Assembly: GCA_016234115.1 (NCBI GenBank)
Contig: JACRHD010000058.1
Span: 1-33,836, forward strand
Source: Nitrospirota bacterium
Lineage (GTDB): Bacteria; Nitrospirota; Thermodesulfovibrionia; UBA6902
Length of the DNA: 33,836 nt
Reading direction: 5' to 3'
Both the position numbers and the translations under genes were made by a program. How positions within the stretch are numbered: the stretch's first letter is position 1; each line of letters begins with the position of its first letter. The notes under the pieces are model-generated. The model searched no databases and was not told the DNA's origin. It worked only from the letters and a program-made list of their open reading frames with translations. Below are positions 5,302 through 19,005 of this stretch, one piece after another.

Positions 5302-5744
5302 TTTTATGTGACTGGAAACTATTTCCTGTTTATTGCAGCTTAAATTGACTCCTCAGGGTATTGCGACGAGTTGCAGAGGAGATCATAAATCGGGGACAAG
5401 CAGGCAACACTGTGCAACTTATGGGGTAACTCCTAAGTTATGGTGACAACCGCATGTTAATCGCGCTATGGTTTGACAGGGCCTGTCCTGAGTTTATCGA
5501 AGGGTCCCCGTGGTCCGCATAGCTGAGGGGTTACCTTACGGTCTGTTTTTTTTATGTAACTATTTTCATTGCCTTATTAAAATAAATTAAATAGAACCAT
5601 ACCCGTTAACCATGACGATATCGAATCCTGCTGACGGCCTTGTGAACATTTATCTGCCCTTAATAATTTTATGGGATGAATTGTAGGATATAGGATGAGG
5701 TATATCTATTGACATTTAAAACATCATTGTTTTAAAACTATTAA
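5302..5744 (+). other. Long non-coding leader with potential RNA structure
   Basis: No gene is visible. The segment 5345-5460 contains several complementary pairs: ACTCCTC with GAGGAG, AGTTGCA (5371-5377) with TGCAACT (5414-5420), and AACTTA with TAAGTT flanking GGGGTAACTCC. A GGTCCCC/GGGG-TTACC pair follows near 5503-5535, with a T8 run after it near 5546. I tried to match it to GEMM and c-di-GMP-II riboswitch consensus motifs and could not. The stretch near 5485-5510 resembles a common dispersed repeat (GTCCTGAGTTTATCGAAGGG). Confidence 0.4.
5709..5737 (+). promoter_or_regulatory. Candidate sigma70 promoter for the amidase gene
   Basis: A perfect TTGACA (5709-5714) is followed at 17 bp by TTAAAA (5732-5737). 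The expected start, about 7 nt downstream, falls at the A of the ATG at 5745, and no Shine-Dalgarno sequence is seen, so the mRNA from here would be leaderless. Confidence 0.45.
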
Positions 5745-6899
5745 ATGAAAAAGGCCTTCTGGACGCCTTTCCTGATTCTTGCCCTTGCAAGTTATGCATA
5801 TGGGTTAAAGCATTCCACAGTCAACGACCTTCGCGTCCAAACGTTCAACAACCATATAAGAATCGTAGTCGATGTAGACGCCTCCGTAGAATTCACGCAG
5901 AACCGTCTTTCCAATCCCGACCGGCTGTATTTTGATCTGAAAAACTGCGCTCTTTCAAAGCGGGCGGTTACTTCTATCTCACTGGATAACGGCATCCTGA
6001 ATAAAGTCAGGATGGCCCAGTACAACAGGGACACTGTAAGGGTGGTACTCGATATCCGTAAATCAGGGAGCCATAATGTCTTCATGGTAGAAGACCCGCA
6101 CCGGCTCGTCATTGATGTGCACTCCTCTGAGGATGACGTTCCTCCGACGGCAAGAGAAGACAAAAGTGCCGGACCAGGTGCCGTCAGGACAACAAGAATC
6201 GTGATTGATCCGGGACACGGAGGAGATGACCCCGGCGCGATCGGGCCCAGCGGGGTCCGGGAGAAAGATATTGTCCTTGCCGTTGGGAAAAAGATCGGCG
6301 GCATACTGGCGGAGCGTCCCGGCATAGAAGTAATTTATACCCGCGACAGGGACGTCTTTATCCCCCTCAATGAAAGAACGGAGACGGCAAATTCCAGAAA
6401 GGCCGATCTTTTTATATCCGTCCATGCCAACGCGAGCCCGAGGAAGAATACGAGGGGCATAGAAACTTATTTCCTGAACTGGACCGATGATGAAGAAGCC
6501 AACAAGGTCGCGGCGAGGGAGAACAAGATCTCGTTCAGCAGGATGGAGAAGATGCGGGGGGACCTCCAGGTGATCCTTTCGGACCTGGCAAGGAAGAACA
6601 AGAACGAAGAGTCGATGAAGCTCGCGTCAACCGTGCAAAGCGCGATGATCAATACGCTCAAGGACGCATACGGGGGGATTGAAGACCTCGGCGTGAAATA
6701 TGCAATGTTTTATGTGCTTGTGGGGGCCGAGATGCCGTCGATCCTGGTTGAGATATCCTTTATCAGCAACCATGAAGAGGAGAAAAGACTTTCAAGCGAG
6801 CAGTACAAAGACAAAATCGCCGAGGCCATAGCGTCGGGGATCAATTCCTATATGACAGGGGCAACGATCGTTGCAAAGAGGACCGGTGACGGGTCTTAG
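5745..6899 (+). CDS. N-acetylmuramoyl-L-alanine amidase with AMIN domain (AmiC-type)
   Basis: This periplasmic zinc amidase cleaves the bond between N-acetylmuramic acid and the stem peptide of peptidoglycan, as in cell separation. The 384-residue protein has a signal peptide (about 1-20, MKKAFWTPFLILALASYAYG), an AMIN domain (about 25-130) that targets such enzymes to the envelope, and an Amidase_3 domain (about 150-370). Zinc-site motifs are present: IDPGHGGDDPGA, SVHANA, and the late LVEISFISN with the catalytic Glu. The order AMIN-Amidase_3 and the length match AmiC. No ribosome-binding site precedes the ATG, while a TTGACA lies 36 bp upstream. The D-aminoacylase gene follows after about 50 bp. 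Confidence 0.95.
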   Translation: MKKAFWTPFLILALASYAYGLKHSTVNDLRVQTFNNHIRIVVDVDASVEFTQNRLSNPDRLYFDLKNCALSKRAVTSISLDNGILNKVRMAQYNRDTVRVVLDIRKSGSHNVFMVEDPHRLVIDVHSSEDDVPPTAREDKSAGPGAVRTTRIVIDPGHGGDDPGAIGPSGVREKDIVLAVGKKIGGILAERPGIEVIYTRDRDVFIPLNERTETANSRKADLFISVHANASPRKNTRGIETYFLNWTDDEEANKVAARENKISFSRMEKMRGDLQVILSDLARKNKNEESMKLASTVQSAMINTLKDAYGGIEDLGVKYAMFYVLVGAEMPSILVEISFISNHEEEKRLSSEQYKDKIAEAIASGINSYMTGATIVAKRTGDGS

Positions 6900-6952
6900 T
6901 CACGGGCGGGCCGCTATCTGCCGAAATCTCAGACAGCTTTGAGGAGAATATC

Positions 6953-8530
6953 CTGACTATCGATTATTTAATCAAAAACGGTTTCGTCATCGACGGCGCG
7001 GATAAAGACAGCAGGCCGGTCAGGGCCGATATTGCGATTAAAGGCGATACAATCATGGAGACCGGAGATCTTTCCCATATCCGTGCTGAAAAAGTAATCG
7101 ATGTACAAGGGCTGTGCGTTTGCCCCGGGTTTATTGACGCCCACGCTCATTCCGAATTTACTTTACTTGCCGACGGCAGGGCGGAGGCAAAGGTGTGTCA
7201 GGGGATAACCACCGAGATAAACGGCAATTGCGGGCTGTCGGCCGCTCCCCTTTTGGGGGCCGCGATGGAACAGAGGGAAAAGGACCTTGATGAACTTGAT
7301 ATCAGGGAGAGATGGAACACCTTCCCGGAGTATTTCGCGCTGTTGGAGGGAAAAAGGTCCAGCGTGAACTTCGTCACCCTTGCCGGACACGGCAATATCA
7401 GGGCGTCCGCCGCGGGATACACGGACAAACCTCTGTCGGACACTCAAAAAGAAAATATGCTTGAGCTGCTGTCCGACGCGATGAAAGCCGGCGCGAAAGG
7501 CCTTTCAACGGGACTGATTTATCCGCCGGGGATTTATTCCGGCACTCCGGAGATTATCGAACTCGCCCGTGAAGCAAAAAAGCATAACGGCATTTATACG
7601 ACTCATATGAGAAGTGAGGGCGACATGCTGCTTGAGGCGGTCGATGAAGTGATAGCGATAGCTGATCAGGCAGGTATACATGTCCATATCTCGCACCTCA
7701 AAACAGGCGGGGAGAGAAACTGGAACAAACTGAATGACGTTTTTGAGAGGATCGGGGCGGCCCATGAAAGGGGCATATCTCTGACGTGCGACAGATATCC
7801 CTATATCGCGGCCGGCACCGACCTCGACGCGGTCCTTCCGTCGTGGGCCTTTGAAGGGGGAAGATCCAGAGAGCTTGAACGGCTCAAAAACGAAAGACAG
7901 AGACTTGCGGAAGATATTTCAAGGAAAAGTGGGGACCCTTCCGGCTGGGAAAGGATAATGATTTCATCGGTAAATTCGGACAGGAATAAATGGATGGAAG
8001 GGAAGAGCCTGTCGGCTATCAGCTCAGCTTCCGGAAAACCTGTGATGGAAACGCTCTTCGATGTCCTTGTTGAAGAGGAATTGCAGGTGTCGGCGATATT
8101 TTATTCCATGAACGAGGACAATCTGAAGCTCATTCTAAAGCGGCCGTATGTCGTCATTGGAAGCGACAGCAGCTCCAGGAGTTTTGACGGGCCCACTGCA
8201 AAAGGGAAACCCCATCCCCGCGGGTTCGGGAGTTTTCCGAGGGTGCTCGGCAGGTACGTGAGGGAGGAGGGAACGCTCGATCTCGGCGAGGCCCTTTACA
8301 AAATGACCGGACTGCCTGCAAAGATATTCGGCATTCAGCGGCGCGGGACCGTCGCAAAGGGATTTTTTGCCGACCTGGTAATCTTTGACCCTGAGCAAAT
8401 TATTGACCGGGCGGAATTCAATGATCCGTTCCGGAGGCCCGAGGGCATTCGCCATGTGTTGGTAAACGGCGTTCCGGTATTGCTGGACGGCGAGCTCACC
8501 GGGGCGTTACCGGGCAGGGTGCTGAAGTAA
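6953..8530 (+). CDS. D-aminoacylase / N-acyl-D-amino-acid deacylase, apparently with a CTG start
   Basis: This amidohydrolase-family enzyme would remove acyl groups from N-acyl-D-amino acids. Metal and active-site motifs are clear: GFIDAHAHSEF (first His pair), INGNCGLSAAP with the metal-ligand Cys of this subfamily, HMRSEGD, VHISHLKTGGERNW, and GSDSSS near the catalytic Asp. The first ATG in frame (7055) would cut off the conserved N-terminal beta-strands. The frame reads IDYLIKNGFVIDGADKDSRP upstream of it. Between the upstream stop (6887) and 7055 there is no ATG, GTG or TTG in frame, but a CTG at 6953 sits 6 bp after GAGGAG and gives MTIDYLIKNG, an ideal family N-terminus of 525 residues. 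It follows the amidase gene closely, so both may handle cell-wall products. The specific substrate cannot be told. Confidence 0.88.
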   Translation: MTIDYLIKNGFVIDGADKDSRPVRADIAIKGDTIMETGDLSHIRAEKVIDVQGLCVCPGFIDAHAHSEFTLLADGRAEAKVCQGITTEINGNCGLSAAPLLGAAMEQREKDLDELDIRERWNTFPEYFALLEGKRSSVNFVTLAGHGNIRASAAGYTDKPLSDTQKENMLELLSDAMKAGAKGLSTGLIYPPGIYSGTPEIIELAREAKKHNGIYTTHMRSEGDMLLEAVDEVIAIADQAGIHVHISHLKTGGERNWNKLNDVFERIGAAHERGISLTCDRYPYIAAGTDLDAVLPSWAFEGGRSRELERLKNERQRLAEDISRKSGDPSGWERIMISSVNSDRNKWMEGKSLSAISSASGKPVMETLFDVLVEEELQVSAIFYSMNEDNLKLILKRPYVVIGSDSSSRSFDGPTAKGKPHPRGFGSFPRVLGRYVREEGTLDLGEALYKMTGLPAKIFGIQRRGTVAKGFFADLVIFDPEQIIDRAEFNDPFRRPEGIRHVLVNGVPVLLDGELTGALPGRVLK

Positions 8531-8586
8531 TGAGTAAATGGGTAAAATTCATCTGCTCTTCCACTTATTCACCCATTCACCTTTCC
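8526..8586. repeat. Imperfect inverted repeat at the D-aminoacylase stop codon
   Basis: GAGTAAATGGGTAAA after the stop codon pairs imperfectly with the reverse complement of ATTCACCCATTCACCT about 40 bp on. Both arms consist of degenerate GGGTNAA/GAGTAAA-like units. It may mark the transcript end. Confidence 0.45.
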
Positions 8587-8624
8587 GCTGGTTTAATCTC
8601 CAATCAGTGTGATAATATTTAAAA

Positions 8625-9659
8625 ATGCAAACCGAGCGCTTGACCTCGACAATTTATCTTGCGATTGTCCTGCTCCTTCTTTACCTCTTTTACAAGATCA
8701 TGAGCCCCTTTCTGATAACTATTGCGTGGGCGATGGTGATGAGCATTACTTTTTATCCGTTATACGGATTGTTTCTGAGATATATTAAAAGGGCATGGGC
8801 GGCATCTCTCGTCACCCTCATGGTAATCCTGATCGTCATATTCGGCCCTGTTTCTTTCATCATCAGCTCATTGGCCGGAGAGATCACCGGTTTATACAGC
8901 TCGATTGAAGAACGGGGTATCGAGACCATCACAAACATACAGTCGTATCCGTTCCTTCAGAAGCTGATCGAAAAGGTGTCTTCATATGATATGCTGCAGG
9001 GCGTCAACTTTCAGGAGAGCATCGTCAGCACGCTGAAGACGATCGGCGAATATGTTGTCGGACACGTCTCGGATGTTTTTACCAACGCGTTTGTCCTCGT
9101 ATTTAATTTTATCATGATGTGCCTGACGATTTATTATTTCCTGAAGGACGGAGAAGCCCTGATCGAATATCTTAAAATACTCCTCCCCTTTTCCGAAAAA
9201 CAAAAGACAAGACTGGTGGGCCGCGTCAAGGAAACAGTGGTAGCGGCCGTATACGGACAGCTTGCCGTGGGGGTGGCGCAGGGGGTCCTCGGCGGTGTCG
9301 CTTTCTGGGTCCTGGGCATTTCCTCACCCGTGTTCTGGGGGTCCGTAATGGCGATTTCCTCCTTTATACCCGTGCTTGGACCATTCCTTATCTGGGGCCC
9401 GGCGTCGCTGATCCTGGTCCTGACGGGGAGCTACCTCAAAGGTATAGGCCTTTTCCTTTTCAGCGCCCTGATCATAAGCAGTGTGGACAACGTCCTGAAG
9501 CCGCTGATAATAGGCGGCAAGACAAACCTTCATACGCTTCTCGTTTTTTTCAGCGTCATCGGCGGCATACAGTTTCTGGGGTTCCTCGGGTTTATTCTGG
9601 GACCGCTGATTGCGGCACTGTGTCTTTCCCTGTTTGAGATGTACTCGGAAGAGGCATGA
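8625..9659 (+). CDS. AI-2E family transporter (PF01594-type permease)
   Basis: This 344-residue integral membrane protein has the AI-2E-transporter pattern: two closely spaced N-terminal helices (about 10-45), a third near 58-85, a hydrophilic loop, and a C-terminal bundle of four or five helices ending in the FLGFILGPLIAALCLSLFEMY segment. The PVLGPFLIWGPASL and VLKPLIIGGKTNLHTLLVFFSVIGGI stretches (each given in part by the family signature) are characteristic. Family members export small molecules or ions such as AI-2, or act as Na+/H+ antiporters, so substrate cannot be inferred. It is a single gene, with a palindromic terminator shared with the converging cytochrome genes. Confidence 0.93.
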   Translation: MQTERLTSTIYLAIVLLLLYLFYKIMSPFLITIAWAMVMSITFYPLYGLFLRYIKRAWAASLVTLMVILIVIFGPVSFIISSLAGEITGLYSSIEERGIETITNIQSYPFLQKLIEKVSSYDMLQGVNFQESIVSTLKTIGEYVVGHVSDVFTNAFVLVFNFIMMCLTIYYFLKDGEALIEYLKILLPFSEKQKTRLVGRVKETVVAAVYGQLAVGVAQGVLGGVAFWVLGISSPVFWGSVMAISSFIPVLGPFLIWGPASLILVLTGSYLKGIGLFLFSALIISSVDNVLKPLIIGGKTNLHTLLVFFSVIGGIQFLGFLGFILGPLIAALCLSLFEMYSEEA

Positions 9660-9727
9660 CGGGACTTTATTGAAACTATCGCGCTCCGGTCCCCCGGCCC
9701 GACTCGTGTCTGACGGATTCCAATAAG

Positions 9728-9755
9728 AAGGGCCTGTGAAATTTCACAGGCCCTT
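9728..9755. terminator. Bidirectional terminator, perfect 28-bp palindrome
   Basis: AAGGGCCTGTGAAA is followed directly by its reverse complement, giving a GC-rich stem between two convergent genes, the permease (+) and the cytochrome (-). T-rich or A-rich flanks on both sides suit termination in both directions. Confidence 0.85.
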
Positions 9756-9780
9756 TGATCTTAACCGGTGTGAGAATACT

Positions 9781-10641
9781 TTACTTCTTCTTTGCAGGAG
9801 CGGCCTTCGGAGCTTCTTTCGGGGACTCCTTCTTCTCCGCATCAGACCAATTGTTAAGGTCATGAGCTATGTTATGGCACTCGCCGCATTTATCGAATTT
9901 GGCGTGTATTCCCTTCGGGTGCGGCAAGCCGTGGCAGTCCTGGCAGTTCGGCACCATCTTGTGCTTTTCCTGGTGACAGAACGCGCAGGCAAACGACTGG
10001 TGCTTGGCGCTGCTGGCAGTGAGCGTGTCGAGGACCTTCTTGTGGCATGCGCCGCAGTTCGTTGAAGGGATACTGGCTGCATAGGTCACGACTGTCGGCA
10101 TATGAGGCTTGTGACAATTTCTGCAGTCGGACGCGGCCATCTCGGACGAGTGCGGCTTGTGGCACTGGGTGCACTGCGGGATCTTGCGGTGGACGTCGTG
10201 ACACATGGAGCAGTTAAGCGCCGAATGCTTGCTCTTATGGTCCCTGAGCTGGACGATCTGCTGAGAGTGGCAGGTAAGACAAGCGTCCGTAATATCCGTC
10301 CCAAACGCGATATTCAACGGCGTGTGAGGGTTCTTATGACAGTTGAGACAGCCCTTGAGCTCGAAATGGGGCTTCCCCATATGGCAGTTACTGCACAGGG
10401 GGATGGGTTTCTTTACTGTCGGCGGATGGCCTATATGACAGCCCAGGCAGCCGACGTCCTTGTGCTTTCCTCCGTGGGCTGAAAGGTCAGACGGCGGAGC
10501 GTCATGACACTTCAGACAATCATCGTTTGACAGCTCCGGTTTTGTCTGGGCTGTTTCGGCGCCGGTAAAAAACAGAAATACCGCAAGCACCGTAATCAGA
10601 AATATTACGACCGTAAGACCACTGCTTCTTAATACCTTCAT
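9781..10641 (-). CDS. Dodecaheme c-type cytochrome, paralogue 2 (Lys/Ala/Pro tail)
   Basis: This 286-residue protein has a hydrophobic N-terminus (about 9-30), which may be a signal peptide or anchor, and 12 CxxCH heme-binding motifs in roughly 230 residues, about one per 20. Many motifs continue as CxxCH-x2/3-H (CLGCHIGH, CLNCHKNPH, CTQCHKPH), which supplies His for bis-His ligation. It should be a periplasmic or membrane-tethered electron carrier. It is a clear paralogue of the next gene upstream, with the same 12-motif order and near-identical stretches such as CHDVHRKIPQCTQCH. It differs by a C-terminal tail of about 25 residues rich in Lys, Ala, Pro and Glu. A strong AAGGAGG ribosome-binding site precedes the ATG. 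No family name is claimed. Confidence 0.93.
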   Translation of the reverse strand: MKVLRSSGLTVVIFLITVLAVFLFFTGAETAQTKPELSNDDCLKCHDAPPSDLSAHGGKHKDVGCLGCHIGHPPTVKKPIPLCSNCHMGKPHFELKGCLNCHKNPHTPLNIAFGTDITDACLTCHSQQIVQLRDHKSKHSALNCSMCHDVHRKIPQCTQCHKPHSSEMAASDCRNCHKPHMPTVVTYAASIPSTNCGACHKKVLDTLTASSAKHQSFACAFCHQEKHKMVPNCQDCHGLPHPKGIHAKFDKCGECHNIAHDLNNWSDAEKKESPKEAPKAAPAKKK

Positions 10642-10780
10642 TCTTCCTCCTTTTGAATGAGTTCGAGGCGCTGCGCGCCTTAACTAAGCAATTTTACGCG
10701 GTACGAGGGACACATACAAAGTCAAAATTATCGAAATTATGCCACAGTTCACTGAAGCAGTCAATAAGCAGGCGGAAAAA

Positions 10781-10866
10781 AAGCGATCAGCAGTCAGCTA
10801 TCAGCCCTCAGCGTAAGCAGTTTGTGGTTTTTTTGCTGAAAGCTGATGGCTGACCGCTGACTGCTT
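10781..10866. repeat. Inverted repeat with tandem NNTCAGC 7-mer arms
   Basis: The left arm (10781-10817) reads as 7-bp units ending TCAGC (AGTCAGC, TATCAGC, CCTCAGC). The right arm (10834-10866) is the reverse complement of similar units. The right arm touches the stop codon of the upstream cytochrome gene (minus-strand stop at 10866-10868). A relative with the same 7-mer occurs at 13615-13687. Confidence 0.75.
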
Positions 10867-11654
10867 TACATATTCAGATCATGGGCGATATTGTGGCACA
10901 TGCCGCATTTCGGAAATTTTGCCATAAATATTTCCGGATGGGGTGTGCCATGACAGTCCCTGCAGTCTGGTATGGTCTTGTGCTTTCCCTGGTGGCAGAG
11001 AACGCACTCGAAGGTCCTGTGTTTGGCGGCGCTGGCGCTGAGCACCTCAAAGACCTTCTTGTGGCAGGCCCCGCAGTTGTTTGACAGCATGTCGTCTGCA
11101 AACGTTATGTTCTTGGGCTTGTGAGGGTCATGACATTTTTTGCACTCGGCGACGGCCATATCGTCCGAATGGGGCGTGTGGCACTGCGTGCACTGCGGGA
11201 TCTTGCGGTGGACGTCATGGCAGGTGGAGCAGTTGAGCGCCGTATGTTTGCTGGGGTTGTCCCTGAGCTGTTCGACTTGCTTCTCATGGCAGGTAAGACA
11301 GACATCGTTTCCCAACGTCGAAATGTTCAAAGGCGAATGCGGGTCCCTGTGGCAGTTGAGGCAGCCCTCTTGCCGGAAATGGGGCTTCCTCGTCTTAAGG
11401 TGGCACTTGCTGCACTGAGCGATCGGTTTCTTAACTTCCGGGGGATGACCGACGTGACAGCCGGCGCACGGGACATTCCTGTGTTTCCCTCCGGCCTCCG
11501 CCCTGGCATTTACCGGACCGGGATGGCACCTGACGCAGTCATCCTTTGTCCAGGGAAATTGCGTCTTTGCCGGCGCCTCGTCTGAATAAGCCGGAAACAG
11601 GGGGGCCAGAAATAGTACTATCATGATACTGATGCATTTCAGCGCGTTCATCAT
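10866..11654 (-). CDS. Dodecaheme c-type cytochrome, paralogue 1
   Basis: This 262-residue protein has a cleavable signal peptide (about 1-25, hydrophobic core then PAYSDEA) and 12 CxxCH motifs, so the mature protein carries about one heme per 20 residues. The extra His residues (CxxCHVGH, CxxCHRDPH, CxxCHDVH, CxxCHDPH) suggest bis-His coordination. It is expected in the periplasm as an electron-transfer protein. It ends at AHDLNM, without the charged tail of its paralogue. The pair arose by tandem duplication: a 37-bp stretch coding for HDVHRKIPQCTQCH differs at one base between the two genes. Two adjacent ATG codons follow a GGAAGGA site and either could be the start. The kinase-like gene lies 178 bp upstream on the same strand. 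Confidence 0.93.
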   Translation of the reverse strand: MMNALKCISIMIVLFLAPLFPAYSDEAPAKTQFPWTKDDCVRCHPGPVNARAEAGGKHRNVPCAGCHVGHPPEVKKPIAQCSKCHLKTRKPHFRQEGCLNCHRDPHSPLNISTLGNDVCLTCHEKQVEQLRDNPSKHTALNCSTCHDVHRKIPQCTQCHTPHSDDMAVAECKKCHDPHKPKNITFADDMLSNNCGACHKKVFEVLSASAAKHRTFECVLCHQGKHKTIPDCRDCHGTPHPEIFMAKFPKCGMCHNIAHDLNM

Positions 11655-11832
11655 GTCCTTCCGGAATTATTCCTGATTGCAGAGCCGCGTCTGCAACACA
11701 TGGAATCCACTGAACAAAACAAGGTCTTAAAATTATGGCATAGTTAAATGAAATAGTTCAATGACATTTCAAGGTGATTTCAACGCGCTTGTTGTACAGT
11801 GCCACGGAATCAGGGAGACAAGGGCAGGGAGG

Positions 11833-13530
11833 TCAGGACATTTTCCATATTAACTCGAAGTTGCAGATAACGACCAGCGGGTTGCCGGAAATGTCCTTTA
11901 CTATGCCGCCGCTGCCGTCTGTGGCAAGGAGCAGGTCATTGGATTTCAAGAGGGAGCCGTCATAACGCAGGTCCTTGAGGTTCTCCTTGACCTTGTTCAG
12001 CAGCATCCGGCACTGGGTCTCATCAATCAGTCTCATGGTGACCGCCCTCGCGATATCCACGGGCACATAAAGGGGACCCGTTTGCTGGGCCACCCACTGA
12101 TCGGGGCCGTTATAATAGCCCCGGATGGTTATGTAATTGTGGTTCTCCTGAAGGATTGGATTGCCCTCAGGGTCCAGGATATGCTTGTGCAACTCGTATT
12201 TTCTGGTGTCTGATGAGGCCTCTATTTTTGATGTGCCCGTCATATAAACGGCCCGTACATAAACACACGGTATCCCTGAGCGGTTCAATTCATGAGCAAT
12301 GGCAAACTCTTCAAAAGGGCTGTTTATACCGTATTGAAGGATCTTGGGATTATATCTCTCTGCTTCCTCATCCGGCAGCTCGCCGACCCGCGAAGTTTCC
12401 CAGACAAGATGAATATTGTCCTTTGTGATCGTGTAGAATACCTCTTTTGTATCGGACAATCTGATGGAAGGCGTTTTTCTCCACCTCTCGGGGAGAAAAT
12501 AGTCGAACAGCCGGGCATTCTTTCCCACGACCCACAGGTGTCCGCCGGTGCTTTCCGCGTGACCGTATATGTAGGGCATGCCGAAAATCTCCATGCTCGT
12601 CAGGTGGTCGGGCAGCGGCGTCGGGATGAAACGGTCCCTCTGATCATCCAGGTAGGAATGCCTCCTTGAATTCTTGACTTCTTCTTCATGCCTTGAAGTG
12701 CGCAGGAGGAGCTCATAATCGACAAGTGAATATTGCCCGATATTGATAAGGTTATACAGGTAATAGACCTGCTCGCTCGGGGAATCGGACGTCTGTGTCC
12801 GTCCGATCTCTTCAATCCGCTCCGAATCGCGTCCGCTGATGATGATATGCTCGGGTTTCATGTCTGCGACCAGATATCCCTTCTGGTCCAGGTCGGACAT
12901 GACCAGGTTATTGAGGGTTTTCAGATGCTGCCGGCGGTCATCGCCGTTTACCGCTATGTGTTCAAAAAGCTCCGTGAGATTGTGCCCTTCTATCCATTCA
13001 TAAATCATTTTATACTGTTTGAGGATATCGACATCGATGCCGGGATGTTTTGCCCTGATGCGGTTGATCTTCGCCCTGGACCTCCCGCTTTGCCACATCT
13101 GCATCTTATCCGGAGGGACATAAATTACCATAGGACGCTGGGTGTTTATCTTCAGCTCCCTGGGACCGTACTGCCCGTCGCGCATCTCCATGACGAGAGA
13201 AAACTCTTCCCAGGGGCTGTTGAATTCAGCGTCGCAAAATTCCTGCAGGGTATGAGTGTCGAGCGGGACGTCTTCTCCCACGCGGCAGTTCTTGACCACG
13301 AGATTGAGACTGACGCCGTTGACGTCCTTTGTGGGGAGCTTGTAGACAGAGCCGGTCCCCTTCAGTTTTATCTTGTGGGCGTTGAACCAGCCCGGTTCAT
13401 ACCAGTTGGGTGTGTCGAAATGGTCCTGGTATTTTTCGGCGAACCTTGTTAAGTAAAGGTCTCCCCCGTCGCTCGTCTTAACGTGTGCGTACACAACCCC
13501 CAGGACATTGACAAGGGTCTTTTTGATCAT
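11833..13530 (-). CDS. Atypical protein-kinase-like protein with tandem degenerate second copy
   Basis: I recognise no named family for this 565-residue protein, but kinase signatures appear in order: a glycine loop GTGSVYK (58-64), a beta3-like LNLVVK with Lys80, a helix NSPWEEF with Glu108/109, a hinge-like YEWIEGHNL (177-185), a catalytic-loop-like VADMKPEHII (221-230; Asp223, Lys225), and a DFG-position VDYELL (Asp271). A second copy follows with the same spacing: IRLSDTKEVF in place of the glycine loop, HLVWETSRVGE (Glu378 where Lys80 would be; cf. VVKNCRVGE), NSPFEEF (403-409) and ICNFELI (Asn557 for Asp271). The second copy thus looks like a pseudokinase. No signal peptide or membrane helix is evident, so it is probably cytoplasmic. 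It lies upstream of the two cytochrome genes on the same strand. Kinase identity is inferred from motifs only. Confidence 0.6.
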   Translation of the reverse strand: MIKKTLVNVLGVVYAHVKTSDGGDLYLTRFAEKYQDHFDTPNWYEPGWFNAHKIKLKGTGSVYKLPTKDVNGVSLNLVVKNCRVGEDVPLDTHTLQEFCDAEFNSPWEEFSLVMEMRDGQYGPRELKINTQRPMVIYVPPDKMQMWQSGRSRAKINRIRAKHPGIDVDILKQYKMIYEWIEGHNLTELFEHIAVNGDDRRQHLKTLNNLVMSDLDQKGYLVADMKPEHIIISGRDSERIEEIGRTQTSDSPSEQVYYLYNLINIGQYSLVDYELLLRTSRHEEEVKNSRRHSYLDDQRDRFIPTPLPDHLTSMEIFGMPYIYGHAESTGGHLWVVGKNARLFDYFLPERWRKTPSIRLSDTKEVFYTITKDNIHLVWETSRVGELPDEEAERYNPKILQYGINSPFEEFAIAHELNRSGIPCVYVRAVYMTGTSKIEASSDTRKYELHKHILDPEGNPILQENHNYITIRGYYNGPDQWVAQQTGPLYVPVDIARAVTMRLIDETQCRMLLNKVKENLKDLRYDGSLLKSNDLLLATDGSGGIVKDISGNPLVVICNFELIWKMS

Positions 13531-14722: not shown

Positions 14723-15877
14723 TTGGCAGGACAGGAAGTGGTAGATGAGTCAGTTCGTCAAAAGCATACAGAGATCGGTTTTGACACCGGTGTGACGGAC
14801 TGTATGCGGCTCACAGTTCCTCGTGACCTGATTATGTTGAATACCCCGGCAATCAACAGCTTTGATTTTCAGAATGTGTTGACCATACCCCGTGCGGCAT
14901 CATTTTCCGGCAGTATTGCGCACCTCCGGCAATTGGACAGCTTCCTCACCGGTGAATATAACCTGCCGCCGCAGACAATTACGACCAGTGACGTATGTTT
15001 TGTTCCACCTCCTGCGGAGAACCTGCCTTACCTCAAGTACCGGTTCGGACTACAGATCATTAAAAACGAAGACAAGCGGATTCTCGACTACTCTGAGCTG
15101 ATGACCAAAATCGAAAAAGGGGAAGGCTCAAGCATAATTGATTTTGTGGATGGATACCTTAAAGAGAAAGTAGTCAATACCTACGATGAGACTAATTCCA
15201 GCTTCCGGGAGGAATATCCGAAGAACTCTGCACGTTTTTTTTATTCCGATAATCCATTGCCGCTCAATCAATCGCAAAAGAAAATATTGACGGCAATCGG
15301 GAATCCAAAAAACAGGATCGTGGTTATTGATGGACCTCCGGGAACAGGTAAGTCTCACACAATCGGCGCAATTACCTATTGGTCGAATCAGCACAAAAAG
15401 TCCATTGTCATCACTTCCCACAAAAAAGAAGCTCTGGATGTTGTTGAACGGATGCTGACCGACAAGTTCAAGTCACTCCATCCTCACACCAAGCCTTCAG
15501 TCATCAGGATTACCCGAAACAATGACCTCTCTACCCTCAACACCATCGATAATTCGCTTTCCCTGCCGGTCATAGATGGCGCTGCGCGAAGGTCTGACGA
15601 GTTCAATCTTGAAGCTGTAGAGCGTGACCGCGTAAAGGTGCGAGACAGCATCGAACAAACCATCAATACGGCAATAAATCACGCCAGACTCTTTCCTGAG
15701 ATGAGCAAGAAACTTCTTCGTTTCATCCAGTTGGAGGAAGAGCTTGTCGTGAATTCAGATGAGCTTACCGGAACACCGACTGCGAGGATGAGAAAATCTT
15801 TGGCTCGCCTATGGAGAAAGATCTCTACGCACTCATCATCCAGAGTGATTTTTATCGCAAGAATAGGGACAGCCTGA
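14723..15877 (+). pseudogene. Remnant of a superfamily 1 (Upf1-like) helicase, N-terminal part
   Basis: The 384-residue frame contains the Q-motif-like LNQSQKKIL and Walker A IDGPPGTGKSHT (near residues 203-214), followed by motif Ia-like KSIVITSHKKEALDVVERML, as in AAA_11/AAA_12 DNA-RNA helicases. Motifs II to VI are absent. After a coiled-coil-like stretch the frame runs into unrelated sequence (RLWRKISTHSSSRV), while the +2 frame continues as a nuclease-like C-terminal domain (15763-16227). It looks like a large helicase-nuclease gene that lost over a kilobase in the middle, with the junction near 15760-15800. The TTG at 14723 has no ribosome-binding site, so the 5' end is probably missing too. 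Intact relatives are common in defence islands. Confidence 0.7.
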
Positions 15878-16227
15878 AAGTCATTCCCCAATTTGATATA
15901 GGCAAGTACATCAGGCAGGAGTATAAAAAATATATTCCCCGTTACCGGGTGGACTTTCTGCTTACCCTCGCCTCAGGCGGCAAAGAGAAAAGCCTGATAC
16001 TGGAGTACGACGGCCTTGAGTATCACACAAAAGATTCGTCGGTGGTGAGGTCGCTTGAGGACTTCAGGGAAGAATATCTCGAATACGACATCACCCGGCA
16101 GCTTGAACTGGAGAGCTACGGTTATCATTTTCTGCGAATAAATAAGTTTACACTGCTGCCAAAAGCGGTTGGGCAGACCCGGCTGGATGTCTTGAATGAC
16201 CTGCTGGGGAAAACCTTCGCTCTGTAA
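15763..16227 (+). pseudogene. C-terminal nuclease-like domain fragment of the broken helicase gene
   Basis: The frame reads SPMEKDLYALIIQSDF, then RVDFLLTL, SLILEYDGLEYH, and a C-terminal YDITRQLELESYGYHFLRIN. This is the layout of DUF559/DUF2726-like PD-(D/E)xK domains that close many SF1 helicases, with Asp in RVDF and the E-x-D of LEYDG as likely catalytic acids. An ATG at 15811 could restart translation and make a 138-residue protein, but no ribosome-binding site is visible. It overlaps the preceding frame, consistent with a deletion junction. Confidence 0.6.
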
Positions 16228-16244
16228 AAGCGCATTGCTTGGGC

Positions 16245-16273
16245 TTGATATTATCGCCCCATAGGGGTATTAT
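16245..16273 (+). promoter_or_regulatory. Sigma70-type promoter of the AAA ATPase gene, with a dyad in the spacer
   Basis: TTGATA (16245-16250) and TATTAT (16268-16273) are spaced by 17 bp. The spacer ends in CCCC-ATA-GGGG (16257-16267), a dyad abutting the -10 that could be an operator. The gene starts 34 bp downstream of the -10. Confidence 0.6.
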
Positions 16274-16306
16274 ATTTTCAATTAACATCCTGTATAGGGA
16301 GTTTTT

Positions 16307-17626
16307 TTGAATAAAGAATCTGTCCTTAACATCATATTCGAGTGGCAAAAAATCGTTCAGGGCCGCCAGGGAACACTTCGGGAGGCAGAGCCTCTGATCA
16401 TGAGTTCAATAGGTTCCAAACCTATAAAGATAGTCACCGGGTTCCGCCGCACCGGCAAGTCCTTTCTGGTACAGCTCATAGCAAAAAAACTGATCGACAG
16501 GGGTGATATCGCTCCCGATAATTTGCTGTACCTTAATTTCGAGGACTACCGCCTGATGGGGGTCGTAAATCCGGAGAAGCTCGGCGATGTTTATGATACA
16601 TTTTTGCAATCCTCAGAGCGGCCGGGCCGGAAGCTCCTGATATTCGATGAAATCCAGCAGGTCTCAAACTGGGAGCGGTTTATCAGAACAATATATGAAA
16701 AAGGCGGCGTGGAGATAATTATAACAGGGTCGAATTCGAGTCTTCTGTCATCGGAGCTGGGCAGCGGGCTGGCAGGCAGATTTGTGGAGTTTTCAATATA
16801 CCCTTTCAGCTTCAAAGAGTTCGTCCGCTACAGGGGACATTCAATCCGGTCAAAGAAGGAGTTTCAACGCAATAAACCCGAACTGCTCAAGCTGTTTAAC
16901 GAATACCTGTCTTACGGCGGGTTTCCGGAGACCTTTGACATTGGCTCGCCTGACGCCAAAAAGTCTTATATCGGCGGCATACTGCACAAGGTGATACTTG
17001 ATGATATCGTCAAGCGTTTCAGAGTAGACAATGTTGACGCGCTCGAAAAGATCATGCACTATCTGATTTCAGGGGCCGGGAACATTGTAAGCTATGCGGG
17101 ACTCCGCAACAAAATGGCTGCGCTGGGCCTTAAGGTCAAGCCGGAGACCGTACTTACGTACTGCAACTATTTCATAAAGTCCTTCGCCCTTTCAGAGCTT
17201 TCCAAGTTCAGCTGGAAGCTTGGGAAGGTCTTCAGCACGTCAAAGAAATATTACGCAGTGGATACCGGCCTCATGTCTTTGTACGCGCCGATAGAGGAAA
17301 ACTATTCAGTCCGCCTGGAGCATATTGTTTATCACGAGCTGAAGAGAAGATATGCCGGGATTTGTTACGGCGCAGGGGACGGCGGAAGAGAGATAGATTT
17401 TCTTGTGCGCAAGGACCGCTGGATATGGGAGAAATATCAGGTAGCTCTCAAGCTGGATAAAGGCAATGAGAAGCGCGAGCTTGGTGCCTTTACTCTGGCA
17501 GACCAGTATCTTACGCAGGGAGAAGATCATATTCTTACTATGGACGACGGAGCTGAGGAAATCGAATATTCCGGACGGAGGATATACCGCAAAAATATAC
17601 TGTCATGGCTGCTCGGAATTGATTAG
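16307..17626 (+). CDS. AAA_14 / DUF4143 family ATP-binding protein
   Basis: This 439-residue protein is a complete member of the AAA_14-DUF4143 family: Walker A GFRRTGKS (45-52), Walker B LLIFDEIQQ (Asp114, Glu115), sensor-like IIITGSNSSLLS (about 136-147), GRFVEFSIYPFSFKEF, then the DUF4143 domain with VDTGL and a nuclease-like end (GGREIDFLV...YQVALKLD). Members are widespread, often multicopy, and sit in variable regions; the biochemical role is not established. The TTG at 16307 is preceded by AGGGAG. It has its own promoter and lies between two broken defence-type genes, so it is the only intact gene in the island 14723-19005. Confidence 0.9.
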   Translation: MNKESVLNIIFEWQKIVQGRQGTLREAEPLIMSSIGSKPIKIVTGFRRTGKSFLVQLIAKKLIDRGDIAPDNLLYLNFEDYRLMGVVNPEKLGDVYDTFLQSSERPGRKLLIFDEIQQVSNWERFIRTIYEKGGVEIIITGSNSSLLSSELGSGLAGRFVEFSIYPFSFKEFVRYRGHSIRSKKEFQRNKPELLKLFNEYLSYGGFPETFDIGSPDAKKSYIGGILHKVILDDIVKRFRVDNVDALEKIMHYLISGAGNIVSYAGLRNKMAALGLKVKPETVLTYCNYFIKSFALSELSKFSWKLGKVFSTSKKYYAVDTGLMSLYAPIEENYSVRLEHIVYHELKRRYAGICYGAGDGGREIDFLVRKDRWIWEKYQVALKLDKGNEKRELGAFTLADQYLTQGEDHILTMDDGAEEIEYSGRRIYRKNILSWLLGID

Positions 17627-17640
17627 CAGGGAGATGAAGA

Positions 17641-19005
17641 ATGTCCAAAATAAATCTGACTGAAGAAGAACTCAAACAACTGCTGAAAGCGGTAAACGCG
17701 GGCGCTGAGCCTTCGCCTGAGCTTGCCGGGAAGATATTCCCGTCTCTCATGGAGAAGCTGGGGCAGGAAGGAAAGTTCGACTTCGAGACATTGAACCGGA
17801 TCAAGATTCCAACTATAGAATATGCGGGTAAGAGGTCGCAAGGTGTGATTCTGGCATCTGCTGCCGCTCTTGGACAGTCCGCGCCTCTGCAGGTGGTCCG
17901 CAGCTTCGGATCAGAAAAAGAACGGCTGGAAGAACCTCATTGTGCAGGGGGACAATTTACAATTTCTGAAGACGGTCTATCTCAATCAGGACCCGCTGAT
18001 TAAGGACAAGGTGAAGGGGAAGGTAAAGCTTATCTACAATGATCCGCCGTTTGCGACAAAGTCGGATTTTCAGGGAAGCAACGGCAGTAAGAGTTACAGT
18101 GACAAGATAGAATCAGCAGAATTTCTAGAAAATTTCCGTGAGCGCCTGCTTTTTTTACGAGAATTATTAGATTCAGATGGAAGCATTTATGTGCACATGG
18201 ACTGGAAAAAGGGGCATTATATTAAAGCTCTCATGGACGAGATATTTGGAATTGAAAACTTATTATCTGAAATAATTTGGAAGCGAACAACAGCCCATTT
18301 CACGGCTCAAGGTTTTGCATTTATTCATGATTCAATTTTCTGGTACAAAAAACAGACCAATTTGTCTTTAATAAGCCGTACATAGAACATTCGGAATCAT
18401 ATCTCGACTCTAAGTATAAATATGAAGATGAAACCGCAAAGTACAGGTTGAGTGATGCATCAGGTAAGGGGCAAGGACCGGCCAGAATATTCTTTGGGAA
18501 AATGATTAAACCGCCTGCTGGTAGGCACTGGCCATCTCAACAATATATTGATGAAAATATTAACTTGTACGTGTTGGGTGAAGATGGAATGCCCCAGAAG
18601 AAGTCATACCTAAAGGGGGCGACTATTGGTTCAGTATGGAATGATATTGATCCTGTAAACTCACAAGCATTTGAGAGAATCGGATACCCCACTCAAAAAC
18701 CTGAGGCCCTGCTCGAACGCATCATCAAAGCATCTTCCAACCCCGGCGATCTTGTCATGGACATCTTTGGCGGCTCCGGCACAACCGCTGCTGTGGCGGA
18801 GAAGCTTGGCAGACGCTGGATTACCTGCGACTTCGGCAAGCACTCCATCTACACGATGCAGAAACGCATCCTGAATATTGCTGATTCCAAGTTTCAGAAA
18901 AGAACAAGGGGTCGCACCTTGACTTTGTACGGTTTTGAAAAGCAGGACGTTCTTGATTTCAAAAAAAATATGAGCAAGATGACATGGTCAAGACCGTTTC
19001 AATAA
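17641..19005 (+). pseudogene. Beta-class N6-adenine/N4-cytosine DNA methyltransferase (Mod-like) with two frameshifts
   Basis: Three reading segments make one methyltransferase of about 454 residues. Segment 1 (17641 to about 17919) is an N-terminal region ending APLQVVRSFGSEK. Segment 2 (about 17920-18350) has NGWKNLIVQGDNLQFLK, the catalytic NDPPF and LDSDGSIYVHMDW. Segment 3 (about 18352-19005) has [14 protein letters not shown] and the AdoMet motif DIFGGSGTT. Segment 1 joins segment 2 if A5 at 17915-17919 is read as A4; segment 2 joins segment 3 if A6 at 18347-18352 is read as A7. Motif IV before motif I is the beta-class order. No partner restriction gene follows; pckG converges 13 bp away. 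The causes could be decay, assembly error or slippage-based switching. Confidence 0.85.

Follow-up and report, generated by a model that had tools for sequence, protein, structure and literature searches.

The window considered here is a stretch of 33,836 nucleotides from a Nitrospirota bacterium (contig JACRHD010000058.1 of assembly GCA_016234115.1, positions 1 to 33,836 of the forward strand). It carries, side by side on the reverse strand, two genes for c-type cytochromes with twelve hemes each, here called copy A and copy B. In the direction of transcription, copy B sits upstream of copy A. In each protein, the CxxCH motifs number exactly 12 and follow the same order; their spacings are 23, 18, 15, 23, 23, 13, 16, 23, 23, 14 and 19 in copy A, and 23, 18, 17, 21, 23, 13, 16, 23, 23, 14 and 19 in copy B. 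The two proteins are 57% identical over their whole length and 62% identical over the core, which uses 232 residues in A and 231 in B to hold its 12 hemes. An original prediction, made from the letters of this DNA, had spoken of two adjacent 12-heme genes with colinear motifs and about 20 residues per heme; both statements hold, the computed density of the core being about 19.3 residues per heme.

Both copies exceed the gathering score of the Pfam family Cytochrom_c3_2 (PF14537), with 46.7 and 43.6 bits against a score of 25; for copy A, the E-values are 4.5e-12 for this family and 5.9e-8 for Cytochrome_C7. Copy A, copy B and the aligned homologues all begin with a hydrophobic, signal-peptide-like N-terminus, as judged by eye rather than with a predictor. 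Thus, the anchor-like N-terminus that had been ascribed to only one of the two copies does not clearly set them apart.

The two proteins belong to a dodecaheme family, in which "type 1" denotes the sub-group that includes the window pair. Comparisons within this family use a tree of 92 sequences, drawn from the fetched loci rather than from all matches and each having at least 11 motifs: 61 of type 1 (the window pair among them), nine from f19 genomes, and 22 forming a deep clade. The term "Geobacter order" refers to the order of a metagenome-assembled genome (MAG) of a Geobacter sp., the one that carries the locus L003. The features of the window are collected in Table 1.

Table 1. Features at and around the cytochrome pair (positions in the window; His numbers are residues of copy A)
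Feature	Position	Strand	Basis or remark
Copy A, dodecaheme cytochrome c, 286 residues, Lys/Ala/Pro C-terminal tail	9781..10641	-	12 CxxCH, Pfam
Copy B, dodecaheme cytochrome c, 262 residues, no tail	10866..11654	-	12 CxxCH, Pfam, 57% identity to A
Copy A, tetraheme unit 1, hemes 1-4, non-motif His 60, 72, 92, 106	10282..10518	-	spacing, His offsets 14, 3, 5, 4
Copy A, tetraheme unit 2, hemes 5-8, non-motif His 139, 151, 164, 180	10057..10281	-	His offsets 14, 3, 3, 3
Copy A, tetraheme unit 3, hemes 9-12, non-motif His 214, 227, 241, 260	9850..10056	-	His offsets 14, 4, 4, 4
Copy A, Lys/Ala/Pro tail, 21 residues	9784..9846	-	absent in B
Copy B, tetraheme unit 1, two extra residues past heme 3 (LKTRK)	11301..11537	-	heme 3-4 spacing 17
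Copy B, tetraheme unit 2	11076..11300	-	spacing, His offsets
Copy B, tetraheme unit 3	10869..11075	-	spacing, His offsets
Promoter-like site of A, TTGACT-N14-TGGCATAAT	10736..10764	-	only exact pattern match in the genome; consensus match
Imperfect version of A's promoter-like site, upstream of B	11732..11761	-	scores 11/13
Near-identical stretch, part in A, 1 mismatch in 40	10158..10197	-	placed by eye
Near-identical stretch, part in B	11177..11216	-	placed by eye
Possible terminator between B and A, 33-nt inverted repeat at the B stop codon	10780..10867	-	82% complementary; putative function
Perfect palindrome of 28 bp where A and the AI-2E-like gene converge, between their ends	9728..9755	.	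putative terminator
AI-2E family transporter, end of the gene block shared with congeners, followed directly by the pair	8625..9659	+	Pfam, synteny
Orphan open reading frame, 565 residues, upstream of the pair	11833-13530	-	no Pfam or NCBIfam match

The build of these proteins is nearly constant across type 1. Exactly 12 motifs are found in 59 of the 61 sequences; one of the others has 13, and one has 11 (L040, whose frame reaches the end of its locus). Besides the histidines of the motifs, twelve further histidines are kept in 98-100% of type-1 sequences. In copy A, one of these follows each CxxCH, at the offsets given in Table 1 (counted from the histidine of the motif). Copy A has three more non-motif histidines, which are unconserved; copy B has exactly the conserved twelve. 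The columns of the type-1 alignment that are near-invariant, one exception being allowed, comprise 24 cysteines, 24 histidines and 16 other residues, with no methionine among them. Because there are twelve conserved non-motif histidines, one for each heme, and no near-invariant methionine, the pattern implies that all twelve hemes would be bis-histidine ligated.

The spacing of the hemes also has a period, reading 23/18/15/23, then 23/13/16/23, then 23/14/19. This period was examined with hhalign, through profile comparison of non-overlapping segments of four hemes. Segments set apart by four hemes give values of 73 (1 against 5), 71 (2 against 6), 85 (3 against 7), 111 (4 against 8) and 88 (5 against 9). 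Those set apart by five give 58 (1 against 6), 54 (2 against 7), 76 (3 against 8) and 83 (4 against 9); a period of six gives 40, 46 and 47, a period of seven 65 and 55, and a period of eight 74 (1 against 9). A period of four is thus at the top for every starting segment except the first, where a period of eight is level with it. The protein is best read as three putative tetraheme units in a row, clearest around hemes 4-11. Profile matches in the PDB include small tetraheme cytochromes, at 3.2e-5 and 6.6e-5.

The C-terminal tail of copy A is not peculiar to it. If a tail is taken to be at least 10 residues after the core with at least 4 lysines, it is present in 56 of the 61 type-1 proteins. 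Tails have a median length of 21 residues, a median share of Lys, Ala and Pro of 72%, and a median net charge of +5; in 55 of the 61 proteins, Lys or Arg fills two or more of the last three positions. The five proteins that fall outside the definition are window B, G210 B, G224 B, L025 and L040, the last of these being cut. Window B has no tail at all, G210 B has 7 residues, and L025 has 13 residues with 3 Lys. No tail is found among the f19 sequences (0/9) or in the deep clade (0/22).

Since 56 of 61 type-1 proteins carry it, the tail is normal for the type; window B has lost it, and the tails of G224 B and G210 B are altered or shorter. The original prediction was correct in placing a Lys/Ala/Pro tail on one copy only (21 residues after the core in A, none in B). 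It went astray in suggesting that the tail may mark copy A as special, with a different partner or location, as copy B is the exception. Such a tail might tether the carrier.

A second feature associated with type 1 lies in the DNA ahead of the gene. Upstream of copy A, where the sequence reads TTGACTGCTTCAGTGAACTGTGGCATAAT, is the promoter-like site of Table 1. A promoter scan of the region returned 5 promoter-like sites, where 1.7 were expected. The pattern used for searching was TTGACT-N13..15-TGNCATAAT, and the full score of 13/13 is reached by 13 of the 61 type-1 sequences: window A, G224 B, the G210 copy that groups with the B copies, and a further ten sequences of f20 and f21 genomes. 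The f19 and deep-clade sequences score 10/13 at most; shuffled sequences score about 8.4 on average and 12 at the highest. In G224, copy A has no promoter-like site of its own and adjoins copy B. By these counts, the exact pattern does not belong to the family as a whole, as all 13 full scores come from the class of the window.

The search pattern itself fixed the letters TTGACT and CATAAT, of course, and their constancy among the matches is uninformative. With the sixth base set free (TTGACN), 564,317 scanned bases, many of them flanks of these genes, hold 10 sites; each is followed, within 700 bases, by 8 or 9 heme motifs, and the sixth base is T in all ten. An exact search was also made in 16 whole genomes, 13 of them carriers and three of them congeners without the gene. 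Of the 12 sites that it found, 11 immediately precede a gene of the family; they are spread over 10 of the 13 carriers, with two in G210. The reversed pattern has 2 sites in the same 16 genomes. As the pattern was derived from this family, its presence there is not independent evidence; its near absence from the rest of these genomes is. The pattern may be a plain sigma-70 promoter.

Between the promoter-like site and the start codon, the leader RNA has no Rfam match at gathering score at any of 14 loci, and the single Rfam match in positions 9500-12000 of the window reaches 15.6 bits against a gathering score of 72. An automatic alignment of 14 upstream regions gave no consensus RNA structure. 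The inverted repeat at the stop codon of copy B has 22 nt between its arms and is followed by a run of T on the reverse strand. A terminator scan missed it, the loop exceeding the limit of that scan.

How old, then, is the pair? The original prediction held the duplication to be recent. In the tree, five sequences form a well supported set (100/96, where the marks recommended by the tool itself are 95 and 80): window A, window B, G224 A, G224 B and one copy from G210. Within this set, window A pairs with G224 A (97/75) and window B with G224 B (97/78), the latter two being joined next by the G210 copy (97/75); these three joining branches fall below the mark. A and B thus form two old separate clades in tendency only.

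Other observations point the same way. Among the 90 sequences with twelve hemes, only window B and G224 B have a spacing of 17 between hemes 3 and 4, with the residues LKTRK; the spacing is 15 or 16 in the other 57 twelve-heme type-1 sequences, and 15 in the nine f19 and 22 deep-clade sequences. The G224 locus (L098) has B and then A, adjoining, as in the window. At the level of amino acids, quartet sites comprise 12 of the orthologue type, 7 of the paralogue type and 5 crossed. Over the core, window A is 75% identical to G224 A and 62% identical to window B. From all this, the duplication that gave A and B probably predates the separation from the G224 copies, and would thus be older than the species.

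The nucleotides are less decided, with 35 orthologue-type, 35 paralogue-type and 19 crossed quartet sites. In unit 2, paralogue-type sites lead by 13 to 6. Local homogenisation of unit 2 is possible. Gene conversion confined to one block was considered and rejected, the clustering of paralogue-type sites not being significant (p 0.23). The near-identical coding stretch, given earlier as 37 bp with one difference, is real and slightly longer, at 40 aligned bases with one mismatch and an exact run of 29.

At a threshold of E<=1e-30, members of the family occur in 28 of 230 genomes of the class of the window, its own genome included (at most 10 candidates being scored per genome). Of 395 genomes sampled from the phylum, 26 have a member (no more than 6 candidates being scored in each); these are to a large extent the same ones. 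In the Geobacter order, the count is 89 of 141 genomes, with at most 17 candidates scored in most. A scan of genome contigs that started from copy B confirmed four loci: L003 and L004 are close homologues (54 and 55%) in Desulfuromonadales MAGs, and L005 and L006 are distant homologues with 8 motifs. With copy B as the query, 60 relatives, nine congeners among them, gave no match at 1e-20.

The congener genomes are drafts, 88-100% complete. A mis-binned contig as the cause of the absence is ruled out by two genes that place the contig in the genus, ilvD being 90% and the AI-2E gene 79% identical to those of G002. In all nine regions fetched (eight congeners and one other genome of the family), an amidohydrolase gene (Pfam), which we take to be a D-aminoacylase as a label only, stands side by side with the AI-2E gene; an Amidase_3 gene is matched in eight of the nine. 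None of these nine regions has a match to A or B. The gene beside AI-2E varies among those congeners whose stretch continues, and three have heme-synthesis-like genes a few genes on (by eye). The simplest reading is that this species acquired the pair at a variable junction; acquisition is likely because none of the nine congeners has a match.

The surroundings of the pair have other contents. The orphan open reading frame upstream includes the residues VADMKPEHI, which look by eye like a kinase loop, and PADLOC matches it weakly to PD-T4-6 (5.2e-4). Further on, positions 14723-17626 (+) hold an AAA-ATPase-like frame, a frame weakly like a restriction endonuclease, and an AAA/DUF4143 protein that is a PADLOC candidate (PDC-S01, 3.9e-107); a DNA methylase (N6_N4_Mtase) is broken over two frames at 17870-19005 (+), covering profile positions 1-109 and 130-219. 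The AAA-ATPase, DUF4143 and split methylase genes look like accessory content. The window has no tRNA, and its GC content shows no step at the pair that would mark an island, the bins ranging from 51.9 to 53.6%.

Possible partners of the two cytochromes are encoded elsewhere. The same genome encodes NrfD proteins (Pfam) beside proteins with 4 and 11 hemes (L135) and with 13 hemes (L139), and has further multiheme clusters at L136 (with an NHL protein, Pfam), L138, L144 and L145. The last of these also includes, at its positions 5387-10471 (-), a gene for a protein of 1695 residues with 32 CxxCH motifs. Tandems of a family member with a paralogue of the deep clade occur in nine genomes of f19 and three of the Geobacter order (G542, G549, G550); these pairs (L026-L034, L076-L078) lie beside other multiheme genes in the loci viewed. 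In L109, the f19 locus studied in most detail, the tandem adjoins multiheme genes, two NHL proteins (Pfam), and a barrel-looking protein of 699 residues without a Pfam match. The family is thus tied to extracellular electron transfer only by association; the window pair itself has no multiheme, NHL or barrel-like neighbours of this kind. Near the dodecaheme gene of f20 and f21 genomes, a gene for a cytochrome with 13 to 15 hemes recurs (L010, L011, L012, L015, L105). In three genomes of the Geobacter order (L003, L087, L090), the type-1 gene adjoins that of an exported-looking protein of 626-660 residues, with Ig-like repeats in L003 (by eye).

The reading preferred here, to which a probability of roughly 0.53 may be given, is that the pair encodes exported periplasmic relays, each built from three tetraheme units with bis-histidine hemes throughout, A tailed and B tailless, the pair being older than the split from G224 and transferred into this species. 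Both would be c-type cytochromes that belong to the same family and work in the periplasm, each with three repeats, like cytochrome c3 or the small tetraheme cytochromes, arranged in line. Each heme would be held by the histidine of its CxxCH and by one of the twelve other conserved histidines, at about 19 residues per heme. Such proteins would be non-catalytic, relaying electrons across the periplasm and storing them briefly, and would pass them between membrane modules and multiheme clusters encoded elsewhere in the genome. A relay between NrfD and multiheme modules may be the most economical role. The wire-like periplasmic carrier of the original prediction survives as a heme-dense and probably periplasmic electron carrier. 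The cationic and presumably disordered tail of copy A would keep that copy near an anionic partner or an envelope surface, and tailless B would diffuse freely or have different partners. Each copy would be under its own promoter-like site. The pair would have reached the species by horizontal transfer or, alternatively, would have survived only here within the genus.

Several observations weigh against this reading. The repeat is uneven: segment 1 resembles 9 slightly more than it does 5, and the match of 3 with 8, at a period of five, exceeds those of 1 with 5 and of 2 with 6. AlphaFold2 gave no reliable fold for the two mature proteins, with a mean predicted local distance difference test score (pLDDT) of 40.7 and 40.0 from alignments of four sequences. 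No electron-transfer gene was recognised, by Pfam or NCBIfam, among the neighbours that adjoin the pair (the AI-2E transporter and the orphan frame). G224 B retains a tail of 21 residues, just under the limit with 3 Lys and 2 Arg; not all B copies, then, have lost the tail. As for the promoter pattern, the Geobacter-order sequences include five at 12/13 and none at 13, the carriers G225, G229 and G206 have no exact site, and the twelfth exact site, in the congener G004, lies ahead of a gene that looks, by eye, like a cold-shock gene. The other type-1 copy of G210 (L014) groups elsewhere (95/84) rather than with the A copies, and therefore the history of A and B is not clean. Transfer, for its part, rests on absence from nine draft congeners, and losses in the others are possible.

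The age of the pair meets further points of this kind, which lead to a different history. Here, the duplication would have been a recent tandem event in the lineage of this species, after which B evolved fast and lost its tail, its likeness to G224 B being parallel. An approximately unbiased (AU) test leaves room for a sister relation of A and B (p 0.474) and for one of the two G224 copies (p 0.442), rejecting neither. With lengths of 0.37 and 0.39, the B branches are long; their grouping, supported at 97/78 and thus below the mark, could therefore be attraction. The near-identical stretch is modestly longer than chance: when codon identity was permuted 5000 times among positions with identical amino acids, the longest run averaged 25.7, with a 95th percentile of 35 (p 0.022). 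Some family pairs from different species have, for comparison, runs of 35, 35 and 38 bases. The tie of 35 to 35 in nucleotide quartet sites and the lead in unit 2 would fit as well. This history must, however, account for LKTRK and the spacing of 17 in window B and G224 B alone, for the same order and adjacency in G224, for the lead of 12 to 7 at amino-acid sites, for a core identity between A and B that is lower than that between A and G224 A, and for the lack of clustering of the paralogue-type sites. It is, on balance, improbable; a recent duplication, like a special tail, is not the best reading of the pair, and the claim of recency is weakened without being removed.

The preferred reading of a periplasmic relay has competitors as to function as well. 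The proteins might be mainly electron stores, capacitors that buffer the cell when acceptors run out. Their heme density would suit this, the window genes stand alone, and electron storage has been proposed for Geobacter cytochromes (PMC2825233, PMC10138318); a carrier and a store are not, of course, mutually exclusive, and a mainly storing role seems unlikely, if quite conceivable. Alternatively, rather than diffusing freely, the two proteins might serve a porin-cytochrome conduit as its periplasmic component and dock to an outer-membrane barrel whose gene lies elsewhere. In G. sulfurreducens, ExtA (32 kDa, PMC12977616) and ExtG are described as periplasmic dodecahemes that belong to conduit clusters (PMC6148476), and the f19 tandem dodecahemes lie beside NHL proteins, doubled-CXXCH cytochromes and the 699-residue barrel-looking protein. 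However, the window pair adjoins the AI-2E transporter and the orphan frame, and no barrel was recognised by eye among the nearest frames of ten type-1 loci of the Geobacter order (several of the listed frames being spurious). The conduit is rather doubtful. A filament-forming extracellular cytochrome like OmcS, OmcE or OmcZ would also be multiheme and, judging by the N-terminus, exported. Against this, no entry for these three was recognised among the listed PDB matches, and OmcS has six hemes; this alternative is very improbable.

A bolder view takes type 1 as a transferable cassette, a triple-tetraheme, all-bis-histidine dodecaheme moving between families of one class with a near-private promoter. 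In some hosts, a tailed copy would be tethered and a tailless copy would diffuse, so that the loss of a tail would turn one carrier into two that differ in their partners. This view is speculative and itself rather doubtful. Confidence in it and in the preferred reading is slightly lowered, and that in a recent duplication slightly raised, because G224 B is tailed, because the promoter is found in one class, and because the joining branches fall below the mark.

Type 1 is easily traced, through its near-fixed spacing, its 24 conserved histidines, its tail, and a class-specific promoter that is otherwise rare in the same genomes. This is of use, as multiheme cytochromes are, according to PMC12977616, hard to annotate because their sequences change fast. 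Type 1 thus offers a test case for the joint exchange of a cytochrome gene and its promoter, and a tailed and tailless pair is a natural system for studying how a carrier is kept in its place in the periplasm.

The family may finally be set against known cytochromes. The comparison with OmcS, OmcZ and GSU1996 that the original prediction had proposed was made by sequence only. Among the PDB matches listed for copy A (11 at E<=1) and for a profile of 23 sequences (16 at E<=0.01), none was recognised as OmcS, OmcE or OmcZ, the screen using what we take to be their entry codes. GSU1996 (PDB 3OV0) is the best PDB profile match, at 2.9e-8 over the whole chain and 3e-4 over the best stretch, with many gaps. 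The likeness to GSU1996 and GSU0592 lies in twelve c hemes in one periplasmic chain with internal repeats. GSU1996 has, according to PMC10138318, which names GSU0592 beside it, four triheme domains with one His-Met heme each and a mass of about 42 kDa. Unlike it, the window proteins have no four triheme domains, as seen from their spacing, from the repeat of period four and from a control with a homologue; and no His-Met heme per domain is to be expected, given the conserved histidines and the lack of a near-invariant methionine in the 61 type-1 sequences. The control is L185, a homologue of GSU1996 in G498 (3OV0 at 2.3e-134). L185 reaches only 1.8e-8 on the family profile, where the member of the family in G498 reaches 8.7e-130; the spacings of L185 (27, 18, 36, 27, 16, 35, 28, 16, 34, 28, 16) are unlike those of the family. 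Butler et al. describe two conserved 12-heme families, GSU0592 and GSU2935 (PMC2825233).

ExtA (GSU2645) and ExtG (GSU2724) resemble the window proteins in being small, exported dodecahemes (export in the window being judged by eye from the N-terminus); ExtA is called "peptide-minimized" at 32 kDa in PMC12977616. Their genes, known here by description rather than by sequence, cluster with those of outer-membrane barrels, whereas none was recognised beside the window pair by Pfam or by eye, Pfam being silent on the barrel-like protein of L109 as well. CctA and the small tetraheme cytochrome STC (PDB 1M1P, 2K3V) share the tetraheme module of Cytochrom_c3_2, the PDB match at 3.2e-5 falling over hemes 4-7; they are, however, a single module of some 90 residues, where the window proteins would have three fused. 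The MtrA/DmsE decahemes (TIGR03508) are multiheme relays that match weakly (1.2e-6 and 3.1e-6), with 28.2 and 26.9 bits, below the cut-off of 192.2, and with ten hemes rather than twelve. The deep paralogue clade (the second genes of the f19 tandems, type 2 of the Geobacter order, and one f20 sequence) has 12 hemes in 22/22 and a similar spacing, but stands separate at 100/100, with no tail and, in every sequence, no histidine at the column of His 92. Copy A has the motifs, histidines and tail of type 1; copy B has the motifs and histidines without the tail.

Among the titles and openings of abstracts that searches of an open library listed for such proteins, none describes a triple-tetraheme dodecaheme family or its promoter. 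The single-chain periplasmic dodecaheme is, of course, already known; the triple-tetraheme build, the twelve conserved histidines and the promoter pattern are the new points, and those that deserve the attention of specialists. If the three-tetraheme build is right, it would add another design for a heme wire in a single chain, besides the c7 polymers and the filaments.

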